Shown piece by piece: positions 4,162 through 32,514 of a DNA stretch of 35,760 bases. The notes below the pieces were generated by a model that made no database searches, was not told the DNA's origin, and saw only the letters and a program-made list of their open reading frames with translations. A program made the position numbers and the translations under genes. Each line of letters starts with the position of its first letter. Positions within the stretch are counted from its first letter, which is position 1. This stretch comes from Granulosicoccus sp. (GTDB lineage Bacteria; Pseudomonadota; Gammaproteobacteria; Granulosicoccales; Granulosicoccaceae). Location: positions 1 through 35,760 of the forward strand of contig JALZVU010000183.1 of the NCBI GenBank assembly GCA_023301795.1, given 5' to 3'.

Positions 4162-4279
4162 GCCGCGTCACTTGGCTGGCAGTCATTGCGACTGTCGGCC
4201 TGTTGTCGTTTCTGGCAACGAAAACATACATATTTGCGTGTAACACATAGCGCGCGTGGCAGACAAGCGAGGAACGTTG

Positions 4280-7200
4280 ATGGCCTTTTCGTTCACTGAA
4301 AAAAAACGTATCCGCAAGGATTTCGGGAAGCGTGCGCCTATTTTGGAGGTGCCGTACCTGCTGCAGACGCAGTTGGATTCCTACCGCAATTTCCTTCAGG
4401 AAGACAAGGGCCCAGAGGATCGGGCTGAAGTTGGTCTTCATGGAGCTTTTAACAGCGTCATGCCCATTGTCAGCTACTCCGGCAATGTGGAGCTGCATTA
4501 CGTCAGCTACCGGCTCGGCAAGCCAGCGTTCGACGAACGCGAATGTAAAATTCGGGGCCTTACCTACGCTGCACCTTTGCGGGTACTAGCGCGTCTGATT
4601 ATTTATGACAAGACCGCGCCTGCCAGCAGCAAGGTTGTTAAAGATATAAAAGAACAAGAAGTATTCATGGGCGAGTTGCCTTTGATGACTGGTAATGGCA
4701 CGTTCATTATCAACGGCACAGAGCGCGTAATCGTTTCGCAGCTGCATCGTTCTCCGGGTGTGTTTTTCGATCACGATCGCGGCAAAACGCATTCATCAGG
4801 CAAGCTGCTGTTCAGCGCCCGAATCATTCCTTACCGCGGATCGTGGTTGGATTTTGAATTCGACCCAAAAGATTGCGTCTTTGCACGTATCGATCGCCGT
4901 CGCAAGTTGCCTGCAACAATCGTGCTGCGTGCGCTTGGGTATGAGACTGCTGACATCCTCGACAACTTTTTCGACACACACAAGATCTCGTTGACGAAGA
5001 CCAAAATCGAGATGGAGCTTGTTGCTGAGCGTCTGCGCGGTGAGACAGCCGTTTTCGATATCAAGGCAGGTAAGGACGTCATCGTCGAAGCGGGTCGCCG
5101 CATTTCTGCCAAACATGTTCGGCAGCTCGAATCTGCAAATATCAAGAAGCTGGAAGTTCCTACAGAATATCTGGTTGGCAAAGTCCTTTTCCATGATATT
5201 GCTGATCCAGCTACTGGCGAGCTAATGGCAGAGGCCAATGCTGAGCTTACCGCTGAATTGGTTGAGCAGATCCAGGATGCCGGCGTCAAGAAGCTTGAAG
5301 TGTTGTATGTGAATGATCTGGACCGCGGTCCATACATTTCGAACACATTGCGTATTGACCCTACGAAGACACAGCTGGAAGCACAGGTTGAGATATACCG
5401 AATGATGCGTCCGGGCGAGCCGCCTACCAAGGAAGCTGCACAAAACCTGTTCAACAACCTGTTTTTCGAGCCTGATCGCTACGACCTGTCACCAGTAGGT
5501 CGCATGAAGTTTAATCGGCGTCTCATGCGTGAAAACACAGAAGGTATGGGTACGCTGGATAAGGAAGACATCGAAGCTGTCATGCAGGTCCTTATCGATA
5601 TCCGAAACGGTAACGGCACTGTTGATGACATCGACCATCTTGGTAATCGTCGCATTCGTTCGGTTGGCGAAATGGCTGAAAATGTTTTTCGAGTCGGCCT
5701 TGTGCGTGTTGAGCGTGCTGTACGTGAACGTCTGGGCATGGTTGAGTCCGAGGGGCTTATGCCTCAGGACATCATTAATGCAAAACCAGTTGCTGCCGCG
5801 GTCAAGGAATTTTTCGGATCCAGTCAGTTGTCGCAATTCATGGACCAGAACAATCCGCTTTCTGAAGTCACTCACAAGCGCAGAATTTCTGCTCTTGGGC
5901 CCGGTGGACTAACACGTGAACGTGCAGGCTTTGAAGTGCGTGATGTACATCCAACGCACTACGGTCGTGTTTGCCCAATCGAGACGCCGGAGGGTCCAAA
6001 CATTGGACTGATTAACTCGCTGGCGGTCTACGCACGGACTAACAACTTCGGTTTCCTCGAGACACCGTATGTCAAAATCGAAAACGGTGTGTCTACGGAC
6101 AAGATCGAATATCTGTCGGCAATCGAGGAAGGCAATTACGTCATTGCTCAGGCGAACACCGAGTTAGACGAGAAGGGCAAACTGACAAGCGATCTGGTTT
6201 CTGTTCGAACCAATAACGAATTCACCATGGAGACTCCAGACCGAGTCGAATACATGGATGTCTCGCCCAAGCAGATCGTATCTGTGGCGGCAGCGCTTAT
6301 TCCTTTCCTTGAGCATGATGATGCGAACCGGGCACTGATGGGTTCGAACATGCAACGTCAGGCAGTGCCTACATTGCGGGCCGAAAAGCCTCTCGTTGGA
6401 ACAGGCATCGAGCGAATCGTAGCGGTAGATTCCGGTTCGGCAGTTGTTGCCAAGCGCGGTGGTAACGTCGATTCAGTAGACGCTGCTCGAATTGTTGTTC
6501 GCGTTAACGATGCAGAAGCGGACGATGGTGCTGGTGGTGTGGATATCTACACGCTGACCAAGTACACACGTTCTAATCAGAACACGTGTATCAACCAGCG
6601 TCCATTGGTGCGAGTTGGTGACCAGATAGAGCGTGGTGATGTATTGGCAGATGGTCCGTCCACCGATATGGGTGAATTGGCACTGGGTCAGAACATGCTG
6701 GTAGCGTTCATGCCTTGGAACGGTTACAACTACGAGGATTCCATCCTTATTTCTGAGCGTGTTGTTCAGGAAGATCGCTTTACCACTATCCACATCGAAG
6801 AACTGACTTCAGTAGCTCGTGATACCAAACTTGGGCCTGAGGACATCACTGCCGATATTCCAAATGTTAGCGAAGGTTTGCTGAGCAAGCTGGATGAATC
6901 GGGCATCGTGTACGTTGGAGCTGAAGTGCGTCCCAACGACATTCTGGTAGGAAAAGTGACACCAAAGGGTGAGACTCAACTGACGCCTGAAGAGAAACTG
7001 CTGAGAGCCATTTTTGGTGAAAAAGCATCAGACGTAAAAGATACGTCACTTCGTGTGCCACCTGGCATGGACGGCACAGTTATCGATGTGCGAGTGTTTA
7101 CGCGTGATGGTGTTGACAAGGATTTGCGTGCTCAGGAGATCGAGCGTGAAGAGCTCAAGCAGGTACGTAAGGATATTCAGGACGAAACCCGCATTATCGA

Positions 7201-8365
7201 GAACGATATCTATGCTCGTATCGAACGGCTGATCGTCAACAAAGAAGTTGATAAAGGCCCTGATGGTCTGAATAAGGGTGACAAGATCACCAGTCAATAC
7301 TTGAATGGTCTTGAACGTGAGCAGTGGTTCCAGATATCCATGCAGGATGAAGCACTCAATGTGCAGCTGGAAAAAATTGCGCAAAGCATTGCAGATCATC
7401 GCGAAGCTTTTGAGCAGCGCTTTCTGGAGCAGAAGGAGAAGATTACCTCCGGTGATGATCTTGCGCCCGGTGTGCTCAAGATGGTCAAGGTGTATCTGGC
7501 GGTCAAGCGACGTTTGCAACCTGGCGACAAGATGGCTGGTCGGCATGGAAACAAAGGTGTTATCTCGATGATCGTGCCTGCCGAAGACATGCCTTACAGT
7601 GAAGATGGTGCGCCGGTCGATATTTGCCTCAACCCATTGGGTGTGCCGTCGCGCATGAACGTGGGGCAGGTTCTTGAGATGCATCTTGGCTGGGCTGCCA
7701 AGGGTCTTGGTCACAAAATCAATCGCATGATTAAGGCACAGCAGGCGATTAGTGAGATCCGAGCATTTCTTGACAAGGTCTACAACCACGAGGGTGCATC
7801 GCAGCACGTCGATATCGCTAGTCTAAGTGACGCCGAGATCAAGGAACTTGCAACTAACCTTGTTCGAGGTGTACCCATGGCAACGCCTGTATTTGATGGA
7901 GCCTCTGAAAAAGAGATTCGTCAGATGCTCGCATTGGCAGATTTGCCAGAGTCTGGTCAGGCTGTGTTGTATGACGGACGAACGGGCGATACCTTTGAAC
8001 GTCCTGTATCTGTCGGGTACATGCACATGTTGAAGCTGAATCACTTGGTGGATGACAAGATGCATGCACGTTCCACAGGTCCTTACTCTCTGGTTACTCA
8101 GCAACCTCTGGGTGGTAAGGCTCAGTTCGGTGGTCAGCGTTTCGGAGAGATGGAAGTCTGGGCTCTGGAGGCATACGGTGCGGCATATACACTGCGTGAA
8201 ATGCTCACGGTTAAGTCGGACGATGTGAAAGGGCGTAATACGATGTACAAGAACATTGTTGATGGTGATCACCGCATGGATGCCGGTATGCCTGAGTCGT
8301 TCAATGTTCTGCTCAAGGAGATTCGCTCTTTGGGTATCAATATCGAGTTGGAACAAGACCATTAG
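4280..8365 (+). CDS. rpoB: DNA-directed RNA polymerase subunit beta
   Basis: RpoB forms one pincer of RNA polymerase and most of the rifampicin pocket. It is 1361 aa (E. coli 1342). I chose the ATG at 4280 because the protein then begins [18 protein letters not shown], matching the conserved terminus, and GAGGAA lies 7 bases upstream; a GTG at 4256 would add 8 non-conserved residues. The rifampicin region (about residues 513–544) reads [20 protein letters not shown] and then [12 protein letters not shown], so the classic resistance positions look wild type. Other signatures are [18 protein letters not shown] and, near the C-terminus, [20 protein letters not shown]. It is followed by a hairpin and rpoC. 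Confidence 0.99.
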
Positions 8366-8377
8366 GAACGTTCTATC

Positions 8378-8409
8378 TGGTCAGCGCTGCAGAGATTGCG
8401 CGCTGACCA
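8378..8409 (+). other. rpoB–rpoC intercistronic hairpin
   Basis: TGGTCAGCGC (8378–8387) pairs perfectly with GCGCTGACCA (8400–8409), leaving a 12-nt loop. It occupies the first half of the 93-bp gap between the two polymerase genes and lacks a U-run. It may be an RNase site or help balance beta and beta-prime. The pairing is visible; the function is inferred. Confidence 0.5.
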
Positions 8410-8458
8410 TCTTGAACAACGAATACATTTTCCGCCGCAACGTCATGGGGAATAAAGA

Positions 8459-11400
8459 ATGAAAGATCTTCTGAATCTGTACAAAATGCAGGGCCAGACC
8501 GAAGAGTTTGATGCCATCCGTATCAAGCTCGCTTCGCCTGAGACCATCCGATCATGGTCCTACGGTGAAGTTAAAAAGCCGGAGACCATTAACTACAGAA
8601 CGTTCAAGCCAGAAAGAGATGGTTTGTTTTGTTCCAAGATATTTGGGCCGGTAAAAGACTACGAATGCCTGTGTGGAAAGTACAAGCGTCTCAAGCACCG
8701 CGGCGTTGTCTGCGAGAAGTGCGGAGTCGAAGTAACTCAGGCCAAAGTACGACGTGAGCGAATGGGCCATATCGATCTGGCAAGCCCGGTTGCACATATC
8801 TGGTTTTTGAAGTCCTTGCCTAGTCGTATCGGCTTATTACTGGACATGACACTGCGCGAAATAGAGCGAGTTCTTTATTTTGAAGCCTATGTGGTCATCG
8901 ATCCAGGTATGACGCTACTTGAAGGTGGGCAACTGCTCTCCGATGAGCAGTATCTTGAAGCGGTCGAAGAGCACGGCGATGAATTTGACGCTCGTATGGG
9001 TGCAGAAGCTGTCCATGATCTGCTCAAAGATATCGACATGCAGTCTGAAGCCGAAGAGCTGCGCGAAGAGATTGAAGCGACTAAATCTGAAACCAAATTA
9101 AAAAGACTCACTAAGCGTCTGAAGCTGGTTGAGTCCTTTATCGCGTCTGGTAACCGTCCAGAATGGATGGTAATGACTATCCTTCCAGTCTTGCCACCTG
9201 ATTTGCGTCCATTGGTACCGCTCGATGGTGGTCGCTTCGCAACGTCAGATCTTAATGATCTTTACCGTCGTGTTATCAACCGTAACAATCGCTTGCGCAG
9301 ACTGCTTGAGCTCAACGCGCCGGATATCATCGTGCGTAACGAGAAGCGAATGCTGCAGGAATCAGTTGATGCACTGTTAGACAATGGTCGTCGCGGACGA
9401 GCCATTACGGGTTCTAACAAGCGTCCTTTGAAATCTCTTGCCGACATGATCAAGGGCAAGCAAGGACGTTTTCGTCAGAACCTGCTCGGTAAGCGTGTTG
9501 ATTACTCCGGTCGATCAGTCATCGTTGTAGGACCAACTCTGCGTCTGCATCAGTGCGGTCTGCCTAAGAAGATGGCGCTTGAGCTCTTTAAGCCGTTTAT
9601 CTTCTCCAAGTTGCAGCTTCGCGGCATGGCTACCACCATCAAAGCGGCCAAGAAGATGGTCGAAAGAGAAGGTGCGGAAGTCTGGGATATCCTCGAAGAG
9701 GTTATCCGCGAGCATCCGGTCATGCTGAACCGTGCGCCAACACTTCACCGACTGGGTATCCAGGCGTTCGAGCCTGTACTAATCGAAGGTAAGGCTATCC
9801 AGCTTCACCCGCTGGTTTGTGCGGCGTTCAACGCTGACTTTGATGGCGATCAGATGGCGGTACACGTTCCATTGTCTATTGAGGCTCAGTTGGAGGCTCG
9901 GGCGTTGATGATGTCTACCAACAACGTACTGTCGCCGGCAAACGGAGAGCCGATAATCGTTCCTTCGCAGGATATCGTTCTGGGTCTGTATTACATGACT
10001 CGTACACGCGTTAATGCGAAAGGCGAGGGCATGGTATTTCAGGATATTGCTGAGTGTCATCGCGCTTACGAGAGTAAGGTTGCCGACTTGCACGCCAAGA
10101 TCACCGTGCGAATCACTGATTATGAACAGAACGAAGCTGGCGAGTGGCTACCGGTACCACGGCGCGTTGAGACAACGATTGGGCGAGCTATTGTTTCCGA
10201 AATTCTGCCGCCAGGACTTGAGTTTGCCAACGTCGATCTCAACCTGACCAAGAAGAACATCTCCCGCCTTATTAATCTGTGTTACCGCAGATTGGGTCTC
10301 AAAGAATCTGTTGTGTTCGCTGATCAGCTGATGTATCTGGGCTTTCGTTATGCAACGCTTGCCGGCGTGTCTATCGGAATTGAGGACATGGAAGTACCAG
10401 AAAACAAGAAAACTCTGGTTGCTGCCGCTGAAGCAGAAGTCCGTGAAATCCAGAACCAGTATTCAGAAGGTCTGGTAACCAACGGTGAGCGTTACAACAA
10501 GGTCGTCGATATCTGGTCATCAGCGAACGATCAGGTTGCCAAGTCAATGATGTCCAGCCTCGGTACTGAGGACGTTGTCAATGCGAAAGGCGAAACTGAA
10601 CAGCAGGAGTCATTCAACTCCATCTTCATGATGGCGGATTCCGGTGCTCGTGGTTCTGCTGCTCAGATTCGTCAGTTGGCGGGTATGCGTGGTCTGATGG
10701 CCAAGCCTGATGGCTCCATTATCGAGACGCCCATCATCGCTAACTTCCGCGAAGGTCTAAACGTAAATCAGTACTTTATCTCTACACACGGAGCTCGTAA
10801 GGGACTGGCCGACACGGCACTGAAGACCGCAAACTCGGGTTACCTGACACGACGACTGGTCGATGTTGCTCAGGACATGGTGGTTGTTGATCCGGATTGC
10901 GGTACAACCGCTGGCTTGACGATGAAGCCCATCATCGAAGGTGGTGATGTTGTTGAACCATTGCGTGAGCGAGTACTGGGACGTGTGGTTGCAGCACCTA
11001 TCATGCGACCTTCTGACGAGAAGCACATGCTGCTCGATGCTGGAACGTTGCTTGATGAGCACATGGTCGACATGCTTGAAGAAGAAGGCGTGGATGAGAT
11101 TCTGGTGCGTTCTGCTATTACTTGTGAGGCCGACTACGGTGTCTGCCGAGCGTGTTACGGACGTGATCTGGCACGTGGCCACATGATTAACATCGGTGAG
11201 GCTGTGGGCGTTATGGCGGCTCAGTCTATCGGCGAGCCAGGTACCCAGCTGACGATGCGTACGTTCCACATCGGTGGTGCTGCCAGCAGATCTGCGGCGG
11301 CCAGTAGTGTTGAGTCGAAGAGCAAAGGAAGCATTCGTCTGCATAACATGAAAGAGATTTCCAACCGGGAAGGCAAGCTTATGGCTGTGTCCCGTTCTGC

Positions 11401-12739
11401 GGAACTGTCTGTTGTGGATGATGCCGGTCGCGAGCGTGAGCGCTACAAGGTTCCTTATGGCGCTGTCATCCAGGCCAAAGAAGGCGCAGCTGTTGAAGCT
11501 GGCAGTATTCTCGCTACCTGGGATCCGCACACCCATCCGGTTATCACCGAAGTTGCAGGTTTTGCCCAGTTTCAGGATTTCGTCGAGAATGTTTCGATCA
11601 AAGTCGAAACTGATGACATTACCGGTCTGACAGACACCATCATCACGGATCACAAGCAACGTGGTGGTGTCAACAAGGATCTACGTCCGTCAGTCAAACT
11701 TCTGGACAAAGACGGTAAAGAGCTGCACTACTCTGGTACCGAGATTCCGGCTAACTACATGCTTCCGCCGGGCGCCATCATCAACCTTCAGGATGGTGAT
11801 GAGGTTCAGGTTGGTGATGTTGTTGCTCGTATTCCGCAAGCTTCCTCCAAGACACGAGACATCACGGGTGGTTTGCCACGTGTTGCTGACTTGTTTGAAG
11901 CACGTAAGCCTAAAGAGCCTGCAATTCTTGCTGAGAAGAGCGGTACCGTTAGCTTCGGTAAGGAAACTAAAGGCAAGCAGCGTCTTGTTATTACTGGGCC
12001 TAATCAGGAGCACTACGAGGAACTCATTCCAAAGTGGCGTCACATCAACGTATTTGAAGGTGAGACGGTGGAACGTGGTGAAACCATCGCTGATGGTGAG
12101 CCTAATCCACAGGACATTCTCAGATTGCGAGGTGTTGAGACACTAGCGGCCTACCTTGTTCAGGAAATTCAGGACGTTTACCGTTTGCAGGGTGTAAAGA
12201 TCAACGATAAGCACATCGAAGTCATTATTCGTCAGATGCTGCGTAAGGTTGATATCTCTGATTCGGGTGACACTCGCCTGTTACGTGGTGAGCAAGTGGA
12301 CTTCTTGCGTGTTAAAGAGGTAAATGAAGCGCTACTGGCCGAGAAGCCGAATGCCAAGCCTGCCGAATTCGATAACCTGCTCCTTGGAATAACCAAGGCG
12401 TCACTGGTAACCGAATCGTTTATCTCTGCAGCCTCGTTCCAGGAAACCACACGCGTGCTAACTGATGCGGCTGTTCGTGGTGCACGTGATGATCTTCGTG
12501 GCCTGAAAGAGAACGTTATCGTGGGTCGTCTGGTACCGGCTGGTACTGGTCTGGCGTTTCATAACGAGAGACGAAAGAGCCGTGCGAAGCTGAGCCTTGA
12601 TCATGATCAGGCGTTTGATCAGGTCATAGAGCAAGAATCTGCACTAGCTGCCAATTCTTTGGCACAGGCTGAAGCTATGCCAGCTAGTTTGCTTGACAGC
12701 ATCAGCCCGGCAGAGGGTGAGGGAGCTAGCGAAAGCTAG
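8459..12739 (+). CDS. rpoC: DNA-directed RNA polymerase subunit beta-prime
   Basis: RpoC carries the catalytic magnesium site, clamp and bridge helix of RNA polymerase. It is 1426 aa (E. coli 1407). The N-terminal zinc module shows [20 protein letters not shown]. The absolutely conserved catalytic motif NADFDGDQM begins at residue 458, placing the three Asp at 460, 462 and 464 as in E. coli. The region [19 protein letters not shown] and the second zinc site ([20 protein letters not shown]) are intact. The last 50 residues are poorly conserved, as usual. AATAAAGA precedes the ATG. Two terminator-like hairpins follow, closing the ribosomal/polymerase block. Confidence 0.99.
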
Positions 12740-13445: not shown

Positions 13446-15086
13446 ATGAGTGACGTTCAAACCATCAATTCTCCACCAGTGGCCAGTCCGGTCATGGCCG
13501 CTGTGGCGCGTACTCTGTTTGCGCCTCAGTTGGCTGCGTTGCTTATTGTGGCAACTGCACTGACACTTGGAGTCGGGTTGATACTGTGGGGTATGAAACC
13601 TGATTTTGTGCCAGTTTCAGAGCAAGGGAGTCGCGAGGATGCACTCCAGATCATTGAGCTCCTGGGCTCTCAAAACATTGAATTCAAACTCGACCCCTCC
13701 ACGGGCTTGGTGCTTGTGCCGCGTGATCAGGCTGCGCAAGTGCAAATGACGTTGGCGGCCAGTGGCTTCAACGCAGGTAGTAATTCAGTGGGTTTGGAGT
13801 TACTACAACAACAACCCGCACTAGGCTCAAGCCACTTCCACGAATCTGCTCGATACCAACACGCACTGGAAACCGAGCTATCGCGAACGATCGGCAGTAT
13901 GCGCAACGTTGATTCTGCGCGTGTGCATCTGGCCATACCCAAGCAATCAGTGTTTGTGCGTGACCGCGAGCAGGCATCTGCATCGGTCATGATCAAGCCT
14001 CAGCGAGGCAGAAGTATTGAAGATGAACAGGTAAACGCGGTGATCAATCTGGTGGCCTCCAGCATTCCCTATCTGGAAAGCGGGCAGGTAACTGTTGTAG
14101 ATCAATGGGGCCGTCTTCTGTCTACAGGGGATGATTCAGCGGGCGGTGCTACACGAGATCAGTTTCAACATGCGCGTAAGCTTGAAAAATTATATTCGGA
14201 GCGCATCGAATCATTGTTGGCACCTATTGTCGGTGCCGGTGCAGTAAGGGCTATTGTAACTGCTGACCTTGATTTCACAGTCAACGAGCAGACACAGGAA
14301 ACGTTCGAACCAGATGCGGCACAGCTGCGCAGTGAACAGATCGATACGCAAGTTAATCGTAACGGCGAAGCTGTTGGCGTACCTGGTGCCCTGACTAATC
14401 AACCACCAGGCGACGGTGATGTAGATCCAGCAATTGCCGGAGCTGAGGGAGGTGCCGAGATCACCAATGAAAGCTCCTCTGCTGTCAAGAACTACGAGCT
14501 GGATAAGACTATTACTCATGTCAGGCAGATGCCGGGTACCATCATTCGCTTATCGGCCGCCATTATCATTGATGACAAGACCTCATTAGCTGAGGATGGA
14601 ACGCCGGTCCGCACACCACTTACAGAAGAGGAACTGGCGGAGTACACACGTCTTGCTCAGGAAGCTATAGGCTTTACAGAGGCACGAGGTGACAGTGTGG
14701 TTGTATTCAATCGCTCGTTTCAGCCAGTGGAGGAAATAGTTCCAGTAGAGCCTCTGCCTATGTGGGAGCAAAACTGGTTTGGTACGGTTGTTCGTCAGGT
14801 GCTTGTAGGTCTTGCAGTGCTACTACTAGTGCTCATGGTGCTTCGTCCGGCGGCGAAACGCCTAATGCCTGTGCCTCAACCTTTAGCATTGCCCCCCGGT
14901 GATGAGGATGAGACTGATGAGAACGAAAAATCAAACAATAAGTCTGCAGACAGCGTGAAAGAACTTCCTTCTCTTGACCCACCGCCAGTGGTGTATGGTG
15001 ACATCCTGAATATGGCGAGAGCGATGGCTGCTGAGGATCCTCAACGTGTGGCAAAAGTGGTTAAGGACTGGGTCGCTGAAAAGTAA
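13446..15086 (+). CDS. fliF: Flagellar MS-ring protein FliF
   Basis: FliF builds the membrane MS-ring on which rotor and export apparatus assemble. It is 546 aa (typical 550–570). It has an N-terminal transmembrane helix at about 29–49, then periplasmic ring-building motifs such as IIELLGSQNIEFKLDPSTG and LELSRTIGSMRNVDSARVHLA. A second transmembrane helix lies at about 445–470. The cytoplasmic tail ends DPQRVAKVVKDWVAEK, the segment that binds FliG. A Gln/Pro/Gly-rich low-conservation loop (about 315–340) matches the known variable region. Its TAA overlaps the fliG ATG by one base, implying coupled synthesis of the two rotor partners. Confidence 0.97.
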   Translation: MSDVQTINSPPVASPVMAAVARTLFAPQLAALLIVATALTLGVGLILWGMKPDFVPVSEQGSREDALQIIELLGSQNIEFKLDPSTGLVLVPRDQAAQVQMTLAASGFNAGSNSVGLELLQQQPALGSSHFHESARYQHALETELSRTIGSMRNVDSARVHLAIPKQSVFVRDREQASASVMIKPQRGRSIEDEQVNAVINLVASSIPYLESGQVTVVDQWGRLLSTGDDSAGGATRDQFQHARKLEKLYSERIESLLAPIVGAGAVRAIVTADLDFTVNEQTQETFEPDAAQLRSEQIDTQVNRNGEAVGVPGALTNQPPGDGDVDPAIAGAEGGAEITNESSSAVKNYELDKTITHVRQMPGTIIRLSAAIIIDDKTSLAEDGTPVRTPLTEEELAEYTRLAQEAIGFTEARGDSVVVFNRSFQPVEEIVPVEPLPMWEQNWFGTVVRQVLVGLAVLLLVLMVLRPAAKRLMPVPQPLALPPGDEDETDENEKSNNKSADSVKELPSLDPPPVVYGDILNMARAMAAEDPQRVAKVVKDWVAEK

Positions 15087-16132
15087 TGGCTGAGTCGGAC
15101 GACAAATCTGATAGCTCAGGTCCACCTGGTGCCGATAAGATAGAGCTCAGCGGTTCGACGCAAGCCGCCATCTTGTTGATGGCTATTGGTGAAGAGGAGG
15201 CCGCCACAGTGCTCAAGCATATGAAGCCTGAAGAAGTGCAGGCGGTGGGCGAGGCTATGGCTGCAATCAACGGTGTTACTCAGGAGCAGATCGGCGATAC
15301 GCTGGATCAATTTATCAACCGCGTGCGCAATCAATCGTCACTGGGTGTGGAGTCTGCAAAGTATTTCAAGTCCACGCTGACGCGTGCGCTGGGCGTAGAC
15401 AAGGCTACCAGTGTGCTGGCCAGTATGGAGCCTATGGATGACGACTCAGGATTGAGTTCACTACAGTGGATGGACCCTCGCGTCGTTGCCAAGATAATCT
15501 CCAAAGAGCATCCGCAGATAATCGCAACAGTTCTCAGCCAGCTTAAATCTCAGCAAGCGGGCGCTGTGCTTGATTTATTGCCTGATGATATTCGGCCTGA
15601 CATCATGATGCGCATCGTCAAGCTCGATAAAATTCACCCAGCAGCACTGGCTGATTTAAACGAAATTATTCAAGAGCTGTTTGAGAACAACGCCACCATT
15701 GAAATATCAGGGCTTGGCGGTGTCTCGACAGTGGCGGAGATACTGAATAGCGTATCCAAAGATGCTGAGGAGCAGATTCTTGCGGCTATTGAAGAGACTG
15801 ATAGCGATGTCGTGGCACAAATCAAAGAAGGCATGTTTATCTTTGAGAATCTGTTGACGGTTACCGATCGTGATATGCAGACGCTGATGCGCGATCTCAG
15901 TAATGGTGATCTGATTCTTGCATTGAAGGGTGCATCGGAAGAGATGCAACAGAAAATATTTCGCAACATGTCGTCTCGTGCAGCTGAGCTTCTCAAGGAT
16001 GACCTGGAAGCGCAGGGGCCGGTTCGATTGACTGAAGTTGAGGATGCTCAACGTTCTATTATTACTGCTGCCAAGCAAGCTTCCGAAGATGGCAAGATTT
16101 CGCTAGGTGGAAAAGGGGATGACTTTGTTTAG
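15086..16132 (+). CDS. fliG: Flagellar motor switch protein FliG
   Basis: FliG is the rotor ring subunit that takes torque from the stator. It is 348 aa (E. coli 331). The N-terminal domain binds FliF. The middle domain has the conserved EHPQ motif at residues 141–144 (SKEHPQIIATVLSQL), which contacts FliM. The C-terminal torque domain contains LALKGASEEMQQKIFRNMSS followed by RAAELLKDDL, with the charged Arg and Asp-Asp residues of the stator-facing helix preserved. It therefore looks like a functional torque subunit, unlike its divergent partner FliM. It overlaps fliF by one base and fliH by 14. Confidence 0.97.
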   Translation: MAESDDKSDSSGPPGADKIELSGSTQAAILLMAIGEEEAATVLKHMKPEEVQAVGEAMAAINGVTQEQIGDTLDQFINRVRNQSSLGVESAKYFKSTLTRALGVDKATSVLASMEPMDDDSGLSSLQWMDPRVVAKIISKEHPQIIATVLSQLKSQQAGAVLDLLPDDIRPDIMMRIVKLDKIHPAALADLNEIIQELFENNATIEISGLGGVSTVAEILNSVSKDAEEQILAAIEETDSDVVAQIKEGMFIFENLLTVTDRDMQTLMRDLSNGDLILALKGASEEMQQKIFRNMSSRAAELLKDDLEAQGPVRLTEVEDAQRSIITAAKQASEDGKISLGGKGDDFV

Positions 16133-20787: not shown

Positions 20788-21258
20788 ATGAAAACGAAAA
20801 TTATCTATGGTGTTCTGGGTTTTCTAGGTTTGGCCCTCTTAGTTGGAGGTAGCGTAGGTGCATCGCTGTACTTTACAGGTGCATTCGAAGACAAACCTGC
20901 AATGGAAGCTGCAATGCCTGCAGCTCCGCCGTTACCAGAGGAAACGTTCTACTACAACATTCAGCCTGAGTTTGTCGTTAATTTTCAAGGGAAATCACGG
21001 GTTAAGTTTTTGATGATCGAGATGGTTGTAGCGACCCATGATGAGGAAGTTGTACCAATTTTGACTGAACATGATCCTGAGTTGCGAGACACACTACTTA
21101 GTCTACTTTCCGAACAGAATGCTGAAGAATTGAAAACCGCCGAAGGCAAGCAGGCATTGCGCGATGAGGCGCTGGTTCTAATAGACGCCATCGTCGGTCG
21201 ACACCATAAAACCGAACGAGTACATGACGTATTCATCACCCGTTTGGTCATGCAGTAG
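20788..21258 (+). CDS. fliL: Flagellar basal body-associated protein FliL
   Basis: FliL is an inner-membrane protein that surrounds and stabilises the stator units near the rotor. It is 156 aa (E. coli 154). One N-terminal transmembrane helix spans about residues 5–30, followed by an Ala/Pro-rich linker. The periplasmic stomatin-like domain contains YYNIQPEFVVNFQGKSRVKF and ends VHDVFITRLVMQ, close to the family's typical VxxVLFTxFVMQ end. A small inverted repeat (TGGCGC 20758–20763, GCGCCA 20771–20776) lies just upstream of the start. fliM follows within 22 bases. Confidence 0.95.
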   Translation: MKTKIIYGVLGFLGLALLVGGSVGASLYFTGAFEDKPAMEAAMPAAPPLPEETFYYNIQPEFVVNFQGKSRVKFLMIEMVVATHDEEVVPILTEHDPELRDTLLSLLSEQNAEELKTAEGKQALRDEALVLIDAIVGRHHKTERVHDVFITRLVMQ

Positions 21259-21280
21259 TCACCGAGAATTAATAGAAAAC

Positions 21281-22171
21281 ATGGAGACAATGAAGCAAGA
21301 AGCTACTGCGTATGATTTTGTCCAACCCGGGCATAAACTAAACACGCAGTGGCCAGTACTTGATTTAATCAGTCAGCGTATCGCAGGCGAGCTTGGCGTA
21401 TCGTTATCGGAACGCCTGAAGGTTAATATGCGCGGTACTGCGCGTGCGACGACACGCAGCAGGTACTCGCAATGTGTGCAGGCGTTTGGCAACACAGGTA
21501 CAGTCCACGAGCTGTCAATGACACCGCTAGCAGGTGGTGTCTGGTTCTGCATGGATATCAGCGTGGTGTCGGCTATTGTTAACAGCTATTTTGGTGGTAG
21601 CGCCGAACTGACTCCGCTCGAGGCACCACGCAAGCTGTCGCGTACCGAGGCACGCGTTATGCAGCATGTTATTGAAGCTGTAGTGGTGTCGGTCAATGAA
21701 GGTTGGTCGATGCTTCTGAATATGAAAGCGCAAAAAGTGCGTCAAGTGGATATTGAACGTCTTGCCAATGCCGCGCTGGAACAGGTAATGGTGACTAGCG
21801 ACATGCTTTTACAGGTAGGGGAAATAGAACTACCTTGCCAGCTAATATATCCATTTGAAACACTGAATCCTATAAACGAGCAGTTACAGAAAGAAAAAAC
21901 CAGCGCTGTTCGCGTGGACGAGCAATTCAGTCAGGCTATAAAGCGAGAGCTGCTCAATTGCGAGCTTGAAATTCGTGGGGTACTTGCTGAGTCGCATATC
22001 ACCCTTGGAGCCCTGCTTGAACTTCAAACTGGAGACTTTATTGCTTTACGTGATGTACAGACTGTCTCCTTCAAGACGCAGAATATGCCGTTGTTCGATG
22101 CCCGAGTGGGTAGTTCCAACGGTAGAGTCTCTGCCAGTCTTTCACGCTGGCACTTACCGGTAAACTCATAA
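21281..22171 (+). CDS. fliM: Divergent flagellar motor switch protein FliM lacking the CheY-binding N-terminus
   Basis: FliM forms the C-ring wall and normally binds CheY-P to switch rotation. The product is 296 aa (E. coli 334). Middle-domain landmarks are RKLSRTEARVMQHVIEAV (about 117–134), and a SpoA-like C-terminal domain lies at about 215–290 (ELEIRGVLAESHITLGALLELQ). Two hallmark features are missing. There is no N-terminal LSQxEIDALL peptide; the protein starts METMKQEATAYDF, directly at the segment aligning with the YDP of other FliMs. The FliG-contact GGxG motif reads FGGSAE (104–109). An ATG at 21290 is an alternative start. An extension to 21224 would overlap fliL and adds no such peptide. 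Identity is secured by position between fliL and fliN. Confidence 0.88.
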   Translation: METMKQEATAYDFVQPGHKLNTQWPVLDLISQRIAGELGVSLSERLKVNMRGTARATTRSRYSQCVQAFGNTGTVHELSMTPLAGGVWFCMDISVVSAIVNSYFGGSAELTPLEAPRKLSRTEARVMQHVIEAVVVSVNEGWSMLLNMKAQKVRQVDIERLANAALEQVMVTSDMLLQVGEIELPCQLIYPFETLNPINEQLQKEKTSAVRVDEQFSQAIKRELLNCELEIRGVLAESHITLGALLELQTGDFIALRDVQTVSFKTQNMPLFDARVGSSNGRVSASLSRWHLPVNS

Positions 22172-28367: not shown

Positions 28368-29939
28368 ATGCAACTTAGACGATTCACTGCCGACTCTACA
28401 CCAGCCGCTCTCGGTGCAGTTCGCCTTGCACTGGGCGATGATGCAATCATTCTGGCTAATCGAAAGATCGGCGAGCAAGTGGAGATCATTGCAACAGGTC
28501 AAATGGAAGATGCACAAGCTCTGGCCGATATGAGCATGAGCATGAACACTGAGGTTGGACACGAAGATGTCAAAACAACGACGAACGGCGCTACTGCTAA
28601 CCTGATATCTGGAAACCGTGTAAGGTCAGAGCAACACAATGTGGGTTCGACCACCATAGAAGAGCTTAATGCTGCCGTTGAATCTGTGGAGCAAAACACG
28701 GCACCGCTGAAGTTTGGCCGAATACAACAACCCAACAACTCGGGAGATAATCCGGTTGCTGATTCACCGGATCGTCAATATGTTAGGCGGTCTACCCGAG
28801 CAACGTCACAGCCGATCACTGATGCCGATGCGTTAGCAGCGCTTAATACTCAAAAAAACCGAGAACCATCAGTCCGTCAAACACCGCCAGTTGTTGAAAG
28901 TGTTGACAAAGAAGTTTTGCGCGAAGAGATGCAGGAGTTTGCTTCAGGCTTGAACGAAACAGTTGCACGTCAAAACGAGCAGCTCATGCAGATCGTCAAA
29001 GCGCAAGGCGCTATGGTCGATCAGTACTTCAAAGGTCTAGAAGTTAATTTATGGGGTAGTACATCCCCAAATCGAAGGTTACATCTCCAAAAATTGTTTG
29101 CACTAGGCATCGGTGCCGAGTTGGCGGTCAAGCTGGTTGAGCGCTCCGATCCTGAAGCGTCGGTGGATGATGCACTACGTCGTTCCTTTGCGTTATTAAA
29201 ATCTACGTTGCCTATTGCTGTGGACAAAACATTCAGCGTACCTGGAGTAACCATATTTTCAGGGCCAACGGGTGCCGGTAAGACGACCGCTCTGATGAAG
29301 ATTGCCACGTCGCATGTAAAGGAGCATGGAAGTGATTCCATCGTTATCATATGTGCTGATACTCGAAGAATAGGGGCTTTCGAGGAATTGCAGGCTTATG
29401 GTCGCTTGCTGGGTGTCCCAACAGTGCATGCACATGATTCGTCAGAGCTAGACAGTCTATTGAGTGCGTTTACGCACAAACAGCTGGTGCTGATAGATCA
29501 TACTTTACCGATGGATGAGGATGCTGTCGAGATTCCAAAGCGCTTGTTGGAGCCTGCTTCAGCCGACTCAGTGCGGCAATTGCTTGTGCTTTCTGCGACG
29601 TCCCAATCAGCAACTCTTGATAGTTTGCTGTCGCGTTATGGTGAGAACCGATCGGCACATTGCGTATTGACTCATCTGGACGCAGATGCTCGATTAGGAG
29701 AGATGTTTAACGCAATTATCCGACACAACGTGCCTATAGCTTATTGGTCTGATGCCGCTAGTGTACAAAAGCCACTACAGCGGGCCGATGCGTCAACACT
29801 CATCGCTACAGCGGCTGCCATGAGTCGTCGTTTACCTTCTACACCCGATGATGAATGGTTATTACGCCTAATTCAGCCAACGGACAAGATGATGTCATAT
29901 CCAGGTTATTCAAATTCCACGCATGAGGTTAAAGCCTGA
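28368..29939 (+). CDS. flhF: FlhF-like SRP-family GTPase with altered G motifs
   Basis: FlhF places polar flagella and recruits the first basal-body parts in Vibrio and Pseudomonas. The product is 523 aa. It opens with the conserved MQLRRFTADSTPAALGAVRLALGDDAIILANRK segment, followed by a variable linker. The G domain has an intact P-loop GPTGAGKTT (299–307) and ADTRRIGAFEELQAYGRLLGVP (330–351). The expected DTAG motif reads DHTL (377–380) and TKLD reads THLD (435–438). The usual NGQxVPED stretch is replaced by SDAASVQKPLQ (461–471). GTP hydrolysis or FlhG stimulation may therefore be impaired. It overlaps the next gene by one base. No flhG follows. Confidence 0.9.
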   Translation: MQLRRFTADSTPAALGAVRLALGDDAIILANRKIGEQVEIIATGQMEDAQALADMSMSMNTEVGHEDVKTTTNGATANLISGNRVRSEQHNVGSTTIEELNAAVESVEQNTAPLKFGRIQQPNNSGDNPVADSPDRQYVRRSTRATSQPITDADALAALNTQKNREPSVRQTPPVVESVDKEVLREEMQEFASGLNETVARQNEQLMQIVKAQGAMVDQYFKGLEVNLWGSTSPNRRLHLQKLFALGIGAELAVKLVERSDPEASVDDALRRSFALLKSTLPIAVDKTFSVPGVTIFSGPTGAGKTTALMKIATSHVKEHGSDSIVIICADTRRIGAFEELQAYGRLLGVPTVHAHDSSELDSLLSAFTHKQLVLIDHTLPMDEDAVEIPKRLLEPASADSVRQLLVLSATSQSATLDSLLSRYGENRSAHCVLTHLDADARLGEMFNAIIRHNVPIAYWSDAASVQKPLQRADASTLIATAAAMSRRLPSTPDDEWLLRLIQPTDKMMSYPGYSNSTHEVKA

Positions 29940-30355
29940 TGACTGGATTGATTTTAATATCAATAGCGCTAACGGCGTTGATTGGGGTCTTGTGCACGCT
30001 TTTATTCATCCAGCAAAGCAAGTTGTTAAAACAAATATTACGACAGCAAGATGTACTCGTGAATCTTGACAAGACTGTGTCAGGACTTGCAACCAGTCAG
30101 GAATCCATGAGAAAACGTATCGATCAACTTGCCACGGATGTGCTGCAGCGGGAAATATACCAGAATGCTGGTGACCGTCATCAGCTGGCAATTCAAAGTG
30201 CCAAGCAAGGCCGGAGTGTCTTTGAGTTGGTTCGACGTCATGGATTATCCACGGATGAGGCAGAGCTCGTTGTTTCGCTACATGCTCCCAAAAATCTGGA
30301 CTCGATTATCAAGAACGCGAATCTCATAGATTCTGCAACTGTTGAACTAATCTAG
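29939..30355 (+). CDS. DUF2802 family membrane protein
   Basis: The product is 138 aa. One N-terminal transmembrane helix (about 3–24) is followed by a coiled-coil stretch (about 28–75). The C-terminal motif, LAIQSAKQGRSVFELVRRHG then LSTDEAELVVSLHAP, matches the DUF2802 pattern of a helix-turn-like repeat with GLSxxEAELxxxLH. No biochemical function is established to my knowledge. In Pseudomonas aeruginosa a DUF2802 gene closes the flhF–fleN–fliA–che–mot region; here it directly follows flhF, overlapping it by one base. Its place between flhF and the stator genes suggests a role in polar flagella or chemosensory array placement (inference). Confidence 0.8.
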   Translation: MTGLILISIALTALIGVLCTLLFIQQSKLLKQILRQQDVLVNLDKTVSGLATSQESMRKRIDQLATDVLQREIYQNAGDRHQLAIQSAKQGRSVFELVRRHGLSTDEAELVVSLHAPKNLDSIIKNANLIDSATVELI

Positions 30356-30358
30356 CCT

Positions 30359-31126
30359 ATGGATATCGCAACTCTTCTAGGCCTTGTAGGAGGTATGGGC
30401 GTAATCATAGCGTCCATATTCTTAGGCGGTAGTGTAGGTACGTTCGTTAATATACCCAGTATCACGGTTGTTGTTGGCGGAACGTTCATGGTGACACTTA
30501 GCCAGATATCACTAGCTCAGTTTCTTGGCTCCTTCAAGGTTGCCGGGCGGGCTTTCAAGCATCAGTCTATACCACCAGAACAGCTGATAGAAGAGGCGGT
30601 TGCACTGGCAAACGTAGCCAGACGAGAGGGTATTCTTGCACTGGAAGGCAAAGAGATCAACGACCCGTTCCTTGAAAACGGTATCAAGATGTGTATTGAT
30701 GGTCACGCGACGGAAATTGTCAACAAGATGCTTTCCAAAGATATCAATCTGGAGCTCGAGCGGCAAAATACAGGTATTTTAATGTTCAAGTCTATCGGAC
30801 AGGCTGCTCCTGCCATGGGTATGATCGGCACCTTGATCGGTCTTGTACAGATGTTAGCCAACATGGATGATCCCAAATCCATCGGGCCTGCGATGGCTGT
30901 TGCTCTGTTGACGACGCTGTATGGTGCCGTCATCGCTAATGCTCTTGCCTTGCCAATGGCGGCAAAGCTTAAGGCCATAAGCCAGGATGAGAGATTGAAC
31001 AAGCTTCTTATTCTTGAATCCATATCAGGTATTCAGGAAGGCGTGAATCCGCGTGTATTGCAACAGATATTGACAACATATTTACCTGAGAGCAAGCGCG
31101 AAGCTGCCTTGAATGCAGGTAAGTAG
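30359..31126 (+). CDS. motA: Flagellar stator subunit MotA, PomA (sodium) type
   Basis: MotA/PomA is the pentameric half of the stator. It is 255 aa, the length of Vibrio PomA (253) and shorter than E. coli MotA (295). It starts MDIATLLGLVGG and contains APAMGMIGTLIGLVQMLANM followed by DDPKSIGPAMAVALLTTLYGA, nearly the Vibrio sequence. Thr158, Thr185 and Thr186 fall at the same positions as the PomA threonines linked to Na+ transport. Four transmembrane helices are expected, and the cytoplasmic loop carries the charged residues facing FliG. Sodium coupling is a family-based inference. motB starts 3 bases after the stop. Confidence 0.95.
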   Translation: MDIATLLGLVGGMGVIIASIFLGGSVGTFVNIPSITVVVGGTFMVTLSQISLAQFLGSFKVAGRAFKHQSIPPEQLIEEAVALANVARREGILALEGKEINDPFLENGIKMCIDGHATEIVNKMLSKDINLELERQNTGILMFKSIGQAAPAMGMIGTLIGLVQMLANMDDPKSIGPAMAVALLTTLYGAVIANALALPMAAKLKAISQDERLNKLLILESISGIQEGVNPRVLQQILTTYLPESKREAALNAGK

Positions 31127-31129
31127 ATC

Positions 31130-31918
31130 ATGAGTGAAGAGACAGAATGCGAAGAGTGCGAAGAGGGCCAGCCGGAATGGTTGGCGACCTTCGCAGATCT
31201 CATGTCATTGTTGATGTGCTTCTTTGTTCTCTTGTTATCGTTCTCTGAGATGGATTTACAAAAGTACAAGCAGGTGGCTGGCTCTATGAAATTGGCTTTT
31301 GGCGTTCAACGAGTTGTAAAAGCTGACACAATTCCGCGCGGAACGTCAGTTATCAAACAGGAATTTAGCCCTGGAAAGCCCGATCCTAGTGTTATGAAAG
31401 CTATGGAGCAGAAAAGTGAGGATGACTCACGACCTGAAATAAAAATTGACTTGCCAGCTCCGGATCAAATCACCGAGCTTCAGGAGTTACTGGAAGCCAC
31501 ACTCGCCGAAGAAATTGAAGATGATGTGCTTGAGGTTTTGGTGACTGAGGATGGCGTAATGATACGCGTAAGAGAGGCAGATGCATTTCCCTCGGGTAGT
31601 GCTGAGTTGCAACGTGGATTTATACCTGTACTGGAAAAACTGCAGACGTTCCTTAATGATACGGAAGGCAGTATCGTTGTTGCGGGACATACTGACAATC
31701 TGCCTATCGATACCTTCGCTTACCCGTCAAATTGGGTGCTCTCAGCAGCTCGCTCGGCTTCGGTAGTTCACTACCTGGCTGAAACCAGCTTCACCGATCC
31801 AAGCCGTATAGAAATACGGGCGTATGCAGATACCCGGCCAGTGGCACCTAACGACACTGTTGAGAACAGGGCGAGAAATAGACGTATTGAAATTAACCTC
31901 AGTGTTCCGGAGTCATAG
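31130..31918 (+). CDS. motB: Flagellar stator subunit MotB, PomB (sodium) type
   Basis: MotB/PomB is the dimeric stator core that anchors to peptidoglycan. It is 262 aa (Vibrio PomB 316), mainly through a shorter periplasmic linker. The transmembrane segment FADLMSLLMCFFVLLLSFSE is essentially that of PomB, with the ion-binding Asp at residue 23. A plug-like helix and GSMKLAFGVQ follow. The OmpA-like domain (about 140–260) has VAGHTDNLPID and NRARNRRIEI, the peptidoglycan-binding signatures. The Cys/Glu-rich N-terminus (ECEECEEGQPEW) resembles that of PomB. It is cotranscribed with motA; a PilZ-like gene starts 5 bases later. Confidence 0.95.
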   Translation: MSEETECEECEEGQPEWLATFADLMSLLMCFFVLLLSFSEMDLQKYKQVAGSMKLAFGVQRVVKADTIPRGTSVIKQEFSPGKPDPSVMKAMEQKSEDDSRPEIKIDLPAPDQITELQELLEATLAEEIEDDVLEVLVTEDGVMIRVREADAFPSGSAELQRGFIPVLEKLQTFLNDTEGSIVVAGHTDNLPIDTFAYPSNWVLSAARSASVVHYLAETSFTDPSRIEIRAYADTRPVAPNDTVENRARNRRIEINLSVPES

Positions 31919-31923
31919 TAAAT

Positions 31924-32514
31924 ATGTCTAATGAAGATATCGATAGGCATAATCGACGTGAGACGTTCCGGCTTGATGACACGGTAACTCTGACAGTGCG
32001 GGTGCTTGATGAAGCATCGCTTAACGCTATTACCGAAGATTTTAGTGCGTTCAGATTTCGGTACTGTATGCAGTCACATATACAGAATCAGAAAGAAGTT
32101 CGTAGGCCAAAATTAATTCGCATAAAAAAGAGGGATCCTGATATTGCGGAGTACCTTGAAAGTCTTGAGGCACAGATAGTGCAATTGGCAGAACGGTTGG
32201 ATGAGGCTAGCAATGTTTCTGGTGATGTCATTGAGATTGCCGGTAGAGCAAGCCTATCCGCTTCAGGCATTCGATTTCGCACCACCCTGCCGATCAAGGA
32301 AGGTCAGGTTATGGAAATCGGAATGGTACTAAGCACTAACAATACTCAGGTTGTTATGCTGGGAGATGTGTTGCGAGTGGAAAGCCGTTCAGATGGTGGA
32401 TTTGCTGTATCTATCTATTTCTCGCATATTCATCAAGAAGACACTGAAGCTATTGTTCGACACCTTGCTAGGTTGCAGCAGCTTGAGTTGCAAGCGCGGC
32501 GTGGTGTAGGGTAG
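31924..32514 (+). CDS. PilZ-like domain protein with helical insertion
   Basis: The product is 196 aa with no membrane segment. The N-terminus has R12-ETF-R16, matching the RxxxR motif of PilZ c-di-GMP receptors. The second motif, normally [D/N]xSxxG, reads SLSASG (110–115), so the first residue is substituted. About 93 residues separate the motifs, far more than in typical PilZ proteins, and include a heptad-like helix (DIAEYLESLEAQIVQLAERL, 73–92). The end, YFSHIHQEDTEAIVRHLARLQ, is common in PilZ proteins. It resembles PilZ variants with inserted helices, some of which do not bind c-di-GMP. It lies 5 bases after motB, suggesting control of motor speed. No good Shine-Dalgarno is visible. 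Confidence 0.75.
   Translation: MSNEDIDRHNRRETFRLDDTVTLTVRVLDEASLNAITEDFSAFRFRYCMQSHIQNQKEVRRPKLIRIKKRDPDIAEYLESLEAQIVQLAERLDEASNVSGDVIEIAGRASLSASGIRFRTTLPIKEGQVMEIGMVLSTNNTQVVMLGDVLRVESRSDGGFAVSIYFSHIHQEDTEAIVRHLARLQQLELQARRGVG

Follow-up and report, generated by a model that had tools for sequence, protein, structure and literature searches.

FliM lacks the N-terminal CheY-binding peptide in a Granulosicoccus flagellar cluster and throughout the sampled Granulosicoccaceae

The analysed window is a 35,760-nucleotide stretch of a genome whose closest named relatives are Granulosicoccus and Granulosicoccaceae. It contains rpoB and rpoC (positions 4256-12739), which directly precede a flagellar gene cluster with the following features:

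15086..16132, + strand: fliG (TIGR00207, 4.6e-91), retaining the EHPQ motif of the FliM-binding face
20788..21258, + strand: fliL (PF03748, 2.1e-22)
21259..21280, + strand: intergenic gap between the fliL stop and the fliM start, 22 nt, into which the peptide would not fit
21281..22171, + strand: fliM, 296 aa, without the CheY-binding N-terminal peptide; the sole FliM found in the genome
22176..22676, + strand: fliN, with an acidic N-terminal extension that contains no EIDALL-like peptide
28368..29939, + strand: flhF; flhG does not come next, and the window gave no FlhG match
29939..30355, + strand: DUF2802 gene (PF10975, 1.5e-10), directly after flhF, the place of flhG in comparators
30359..31126, + strand: motA/pomA-type stator gene (NF006527, 341.4 bits, cut-off 341)
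31130..31918, + strand: motB-type stator gene (NF006508; PF13677)
31924..32514, + strand: PilZ-domain gene after motB (PF07238, 2.7e-8)

The score of the stator gene at 30359-31126 lies at the PomA cut-off and hints at a sodium-driven motor. The PilZ gene behind motB is a possible candidate for a c-di-GMP motor regulator or brake; a PilZ match was named in 12 of the 13 other family loci examined and in none of the genes at the G018 locus.

The fliM gene begins with an ATG at 21281 and its product starts METMKQEATAYDF. Pfam identifies the FliM middle domain (PF02154) at residues 11-202 (2.2e-17; 64 bits, cut-off 27), placing it only 10 residues past the start, and a FliMN_C domain at residues 223-288 (40.7 bits, cut-off 23.8). 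With 64 bits against PF02154, the middle domain is strongly divergent. The predicted structure has a mean pLDDT of 74, falling under 50 at residues 1-12 and 15-21; its residues 25-203 adopt the fold of a FliM middle domain, which aligns with Vibrio FliM at a Z score of 21.7 (1.8 A, 165 aligned residues) and with Salmonella FliM chains at Z scores of up to 24. The Salmonella alignments start with model residues 9-16 against chain residues 41-45, so that about 30 N-terminal residues are absent from the window FliM; the HMM alignment concurs, pairing its residue 7 with Salmonella chain residue 34. Having the PF02154 middle domain, FliMN_C and a fliL-fliM-fliN-fliO operon context, the protein is a true member of the FliM family, but without an N-terminal LSQxEIDALL-type peptide it stands outside the CheY-tethering kind. 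The original prediction of a fliM frame without this peptide is thereby confirmed by the open reading frame, its coordinates, the Pfam matches and the relatives. It had also held that no DNA between fliL and fliM could encode the peptide, which agrees with the 22 nt between the end of fliL at 21258 and the beginning of fliM at 21281, and that an alternative start at 21224 runs into fliL; this start does overlap fliL, and the sequence that it would add is unconserved in relatives.

A frameshift or assembly error is not the cause of the missing peptide, as the same structure recurs in other assemblies including the single-contig, 7.78-Mb assembly of G024. A mis-called fliM start or a frameshift is furthermore ruled out by upstream stops in relatives, a six-frame scan and a motif scan. 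An in-frame stop lies two codons before the fliM start in L017 and at most 9 codons before it in L012, L016, L020 and L023, making an upstream extension of fliM impossible in each of these loci. The window genome (5.78 Mb, 97% complete, 313 contigs) yielded one FliM, and the second canonical copy that the original prediction had allowed for was found with neither of two models, PF02154 and a family-specific one. Another protein might have taken over the peptide, as FliY has in Bacillus, and CheY would then still be tethered; FliN of the genus does carry a long acidic N-terminal extension. We consider such a move very improbable, since the six-frame scan of the window and the chemotaxis loci L069-L073 revealed no LSQxEIDALL-type or EIDALL-like peptide and none was seen by eye in 16 family FliN proteins (two of the 18 FliM loci gave no FliN).

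FliM is present in 14 of 27 genomes of the genus Granulosicoccus, the window's included, and in 3 of 9 other genomes of the family. A comparison with FliM of related genomes, as proposed along with the original prediction, shows that the peptide is absent from all 18 FliM genes of these 17 Granulosicoccaceae genomes. A permissive motif scan of the 420 nt before the domain gave an in-frame match in 0/18 family genes (off-frame chance matches in 2), compared with 39/42 FliM genes of other Gammaproteobacteria. Two of the three comparators missed by the scan read LNQ.EIDAL. by eye and the third (L185, G400) is degenerate; the peptide is thus present in 41 of the 42 scanned comparators, with one degenerate. 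Most of these 42 were picked for having the lowest FliM scores in a 369-genome class sample (190 with FliM); the scan left out G043, G103, G229 and G191 and the 28 top-scoring class loci L139-L166, and the first three of these carry the peptide by eye. Two Aquificaceae loci taken in a wrong frame (L215, L217) are not counted. Because even the weakest-scoring comparator FliM keep the peptide, divergence alone does not remove it. In FliM proteins of the genus, the YDF segment follows 7 to 12 residues after the start (starts picked by eye), the three family FliM from outside the genus have an acidic N-terminal extension but no peptide, and FliM of a Bugula symbiont relative (L209) is likewise without it. 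The loss in flagellated Granulosicoccaceae was probably one evolutionary event. Our search of the literature on FliM and its N-terminus, partial in coverage and especially so for subscription papers, met no report of a FliM naturally without the motif. We conclude that this is a real loss, throughout the sampled family, of a feature thought to be near-universal.

Other features of FliM also vary within the family. Only 5 of the 18 family genes retain the final Gly of the GGxG motif, and the FliM of G031 (L022) contains an acidic low-complexity insertion within the middle domain, adjoining the GG motif. G001 encodes two different FliM genes (L013, L028), both peptide-less.

The chemotaxis signal is generally held to enter the motor through the FliM peptide. 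Both cheY and cheA, for which a search had been suggested with the original prediction, are present in the window genome on contig C18, where an MCP gene is divergent from cheY, a gene for a 148-aa protein (here termed X), cheA, cheW, a STAS-like gene, cheR and cheB. X was identified in 14/14 genus genomes with fliM and in 1/13 without it, the latter (G026, L098) being a marginal match with three stops that may represent a decayed X or chance. The C18 CheA query found a match with E < 1e-80 in 14/14 fliM-containing genus genomes, compared with a best match of 1e-38 in the 13 lacking fliM, where most CheA matches sit in frames of >1,200 aa, like Chp-type kinases. Fisher p values for the association with fliM are 7e-7 (X) and 5e-8 (non-Chp CheA), uncorrected for shared ancestry. 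Outside the genus, X was found in the 3 fliM-containing family genomes and in G029, and FliM is present in 16/16 genomes with X in the class sample, compared with 190/369 overall. In 29 of the 30 loci with X, cheY is the gene immediately before it; X is therefore not always beside cheY, the exception being G224, with no cheY within 1.5 kb upstream of X. In G233 the gene order is fliM, fliL, X, cheY, cheR, cheB, an unnamed 753-aa gene, cheW and cheA, and in several genomes cheY-X is located away from cheA, beside ketoacyl-synthase-like and aroQ-like genes (named by eye).

CheZ was found in 0/36 family genomes; the same search identified it in 8 of 10 fliM-containing class comparators; G044, one of the remaining two, has X, and G037 has neither CheZ nor X. 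G024 encodes a second chemotaxis cluster (L218, G024:C1:276000-294000) comprising a 900-aa multi-Hpt CheA, its own CheY with Tyr at 106 by eye, and a true CheX (PF13690). CheA matches similar to this multi-Hpt CheA also occur in other fliM-containing genomes. For kelp-associated Granulosicoccus genomes, 32 flagellar and 11 chemotaxis genes are given in the accessible part of PMC9238374.

This gene content bears on the second option of the original prediction, namely a motor unresponsive to CheY. In that case the C ring would only assemble and export, speed would be set otherwise, for instance by the PilZ protein behind motB, and the chemotaxis genes would serve something else. A divergent FliM without the peptide is compatible with this, as are lateral motors with divergent FliM and FliG, which are described as non-chemotactic in the portion of PMC8042155 available to us. 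Furthermore, G029 (L219, L220; 98% complete) retains cheY-X, a chemotaxis cluster and CheA, while FliM was not found in it by two models, owing either to a recent loss of flagella or to a missing contig; these genes thus do not strictly need FliM. However, within the genus X with its neighbouring cheY and the non-Chp CheA go together with the flagellum, cheY-X adjoins fliL-fliM in G233, FliG retains EHPQ, and the divergent FliM is the sole one found in the window genome. A switch deaf to CheY is therefore disfavoured and, in our view, unlikely; judged from gene content, the motor is probably still chemotactic.

Protein X of the window genome has no Pfam (E 0.001) or NCBIfam match, X of G336 has no Pfam match at E 0.001, and a PDB sequence search with X returned one match of E 0.85, which was taken as chance. 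Its structural model (pLDDT 92) matched CheX (6e-5), FliM middle domains (3e-4) and, weakly, CheC in Foldseek. VIA Z scores were 12.9 for FliM middle domains (141 aligned, 3.2 A), 10.9 for CheX (130 aligned, 3.0 A) and 10.2-10.5 for CheC. X thus has the common fold of CheX, CheC and the FliM middle domain (Z 9-13) and does not match PF13690. It was rejected as a sequence member of either CheX or FliM, since profiles gave no match to FliM or to the two CheX proteins of G024 and G336, which themselves do match PF13690. Residues Y93, E94 and N97 of X are invariant in 19/19 sequences, and the ExxN lies in a long helix; we take it to be the phosphatase motif of CheX and CheC. In G336 (L126), cheY and X are neighbours of a cheR-like gene and a true CheX, and CheX and X are accordingly separate genes in one cluster.

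Judged from its fold and the ExxN, X is probably a phosphatase as a first guess, with an adaptor as the second. As an adaptor, X would be a new docking part, a free-standing protein resembling the FliM middle domain that binds CheY-P, places it on the C ring and so takes the role of the lost peptide, for which CheF of archaea, a CheY adaptor according to the accessible part of PMC9126983, provides a precedent. The resemblance of X to FliM middle domains, at least as good as that to CheX (Z 12.9 vs 10.9), and the position of its gene directly after cheY in nearly all X loci are in line with such a role. Against it stand the retained ExxN, the lack of any profile match to FliM or the two CheX proteins and the presence of X in genomes that keep the peptide, and we rate it as rather unlikely. 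The last of these points also weakens a compensatory role of X for the missing peptide, as X-carrying genomes outside the family keep the peptide.

The CheY encoded beside X contains a receiver domain (PF00072, 1.5e-25), has CheY chains as its top PDB matches and retains D12, D13, D57, T87 and K109 in 18/18 family sequences. These 18 family CheY (one from the FliM-less G029) were compared with 10 X-linked CheY from peptide-keeping genomes and 7 from cheZ loci, the last forming the canonical consensus (of 8 CheZ loci, L104 gave none). The comparison omits L124_0 (an extra response regulator), G224 and G336, and so counts 10 of the 12 X-containing non-family genomes; the CheY of G336 is of the X-linked kind by eye. 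At the nine FliM-peptide contact positions listed in the accessible part of PMC3774744, the family and canonical consensus sequences disagree at 9/9, weakly so at position 90 (S vs A/S). K91 is replaced by T and I95 by R in 18/18, and Y106 by L, V or M, so that the FliM-peptide-binding face of E. coli CheY is not preserved. As the two consensus sequences agree at 45/119 positions over their whole length, agreement at none of the nine contacts has a chance of ~0.011. Agreement is found at 18/28 positions of the phosphorylation-site face, whose helix 1 and loops contact the FliM middle domain and FliG in the Salmonella ring (PMC11528121, available part; residue limits of our own choice); among these 28 are residues common to receivers in general. 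X-linked CheY from genomes that keep the peptide are altered alike, with R95 in 10/10, indicating that the change either preceded the peptide loss or is unconnected with it. This weakens the idea that the CheY face was altered because the peptide was lost, and, on the sequences compared, the face change is not a sufficient explanation of the loss.

According to the accessible part of PMC12826062, FlhG acts on FliM/N via the FliM N-terminus. We searched the DNA behind flhF with FlhG of G233 as query (a MinD/ParA-type ATPase by Pfam, named by its place). flhG is present in 21/21 comparator genomes with the locus in view, normally right after flhF, and was found behind flhF in 0/14 family loci including the window, where DUF2802 or motA stands instead. 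As the family forms a single clade, the Fisher value of 4e-10 overstates this contrast. No FlhG match was obtained in 0.80 Mb of family DNA (overlaps counted), which comprises loci only. The comparison omits G095, G398, G086 and the family genomes G016, G007 and G005 (contig ends) as well as G156 (stretch too short). In G318 and G182 flhG was seen and flhF was not named by BLAST, and in G400 flhG is present and the peptide is only degenerate. G. antarcticus has been reported to bear tufts of flagella in the accessible part of PMC9238374, and a larger number of flagella without FlhG would fit this observation.

Normally the N-terminal FliM peptide serves both CheY-P and FlhG, a protein that restricts the number of flagella. 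In the family, flhG is absent from its place after flhF and the X-neighbouring CheY has lost its peptide-gripping face; with neither partner left, the peptide would be dispensable. CheY-P would then most likely bind the groove between the FliM middle domain and FliG directly, without a tether, via its phosphorylation-site face, and the CheX-like X would probably end the signal in place of CheZ. We infer direct docking, the phosphatase role of X, the identity of the motor-driving CheY and the loss of both partners as the cause, and we put this scheme as a whole at about an even chance of being right. Of the routes left for CheY, untethered docking on FliM-middle/FliG is most likely by analogy to the CheY-bound C ring of Salmonella, in which, in the part of PMC11528121 available to us, CheY contacts the FliM middle domain and FliG and not FliN. 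The original prediction had offered CheY acting through FliN or the FliM middle domain as its other option, and this is the better of its two, with the middle domain favoured for the reason just given; FliN may nevertheless be a CheY site, as CheY associates with FliN in E. coli pull-downs (PMC7355467, accessible part). Its two-option reading is therefore partly supported, FlhG and the altered peptide-binding face of CheY having been left out of account. A variant in which CheY-P controls the switch without a FliM tether, possibly delivered by X as an adaptor and enabled by the loss of FlhG, seems improbable to us.

The pattern fits a rule under which the peptide is retained for as long as one or both partners depend on it. 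FlhG, the peptide and an X-linked CheY occur together in 9 genomes in which all three were read, and in Granulosicoccaceae an X-linked CheY without flhG at the locus goes with a lost peptide. E. coli, with a canonical CheY and no known FlhG, keeps the peptide. Since the loss in the family amounts to about one event, the link of the peptide with flhG and the CheY face represents a single case, and the second cluster of G024, with its own CheY and CheX, leaves the X-linked CheY as the presumptive motor-driving one. If the scheme is true, a family with chemotaxis genes and without the peptide shows that the second CheY site of the C ring can suffice, and it offers a natural test of what the tether contributes in affinity, cooperativity and speed. 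That flhG has gone from the locus in parallel suggests that selection for two partners maintains the peptide.

Compared with known systems, the window FliM resembles canonical FliM of Salmonella, E. coli and Vibrio in its middle domain, its FliMN_C domain and its place in fliL-fliM-fliN, and differs from them in having neither the N-terminal peptide nor the linker. The secondary FliM of Shewanella putrefaciens has no known CheY-binding motif either. FliM is divergent in lateral (secondary) flagella of Gammaproteobacteria too; in contrast to those motors, non-chemotactic according to the accessible part of PMC8042155, the window genome has this FliM as the sole one found, and chemotaxis genes track FliM. 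X shares with CheX (PF13690) and CheC their fold and the ExxN in a long helix, but unlike CheX it has no Pfam or CheX profile match and is nearer to FliM middle domains by Z score. The takeover of the motor by the F7 chemosensory system in place of F6, as described in the available part of PMC7184735, indicates that motor-driving chemosensory parts are exchangeable over evolution; the former cheY/cheZ output persisted in that case, whereas in Granulosicoccaceae, in which CheZ was not found, the cheY-X pair stands in.
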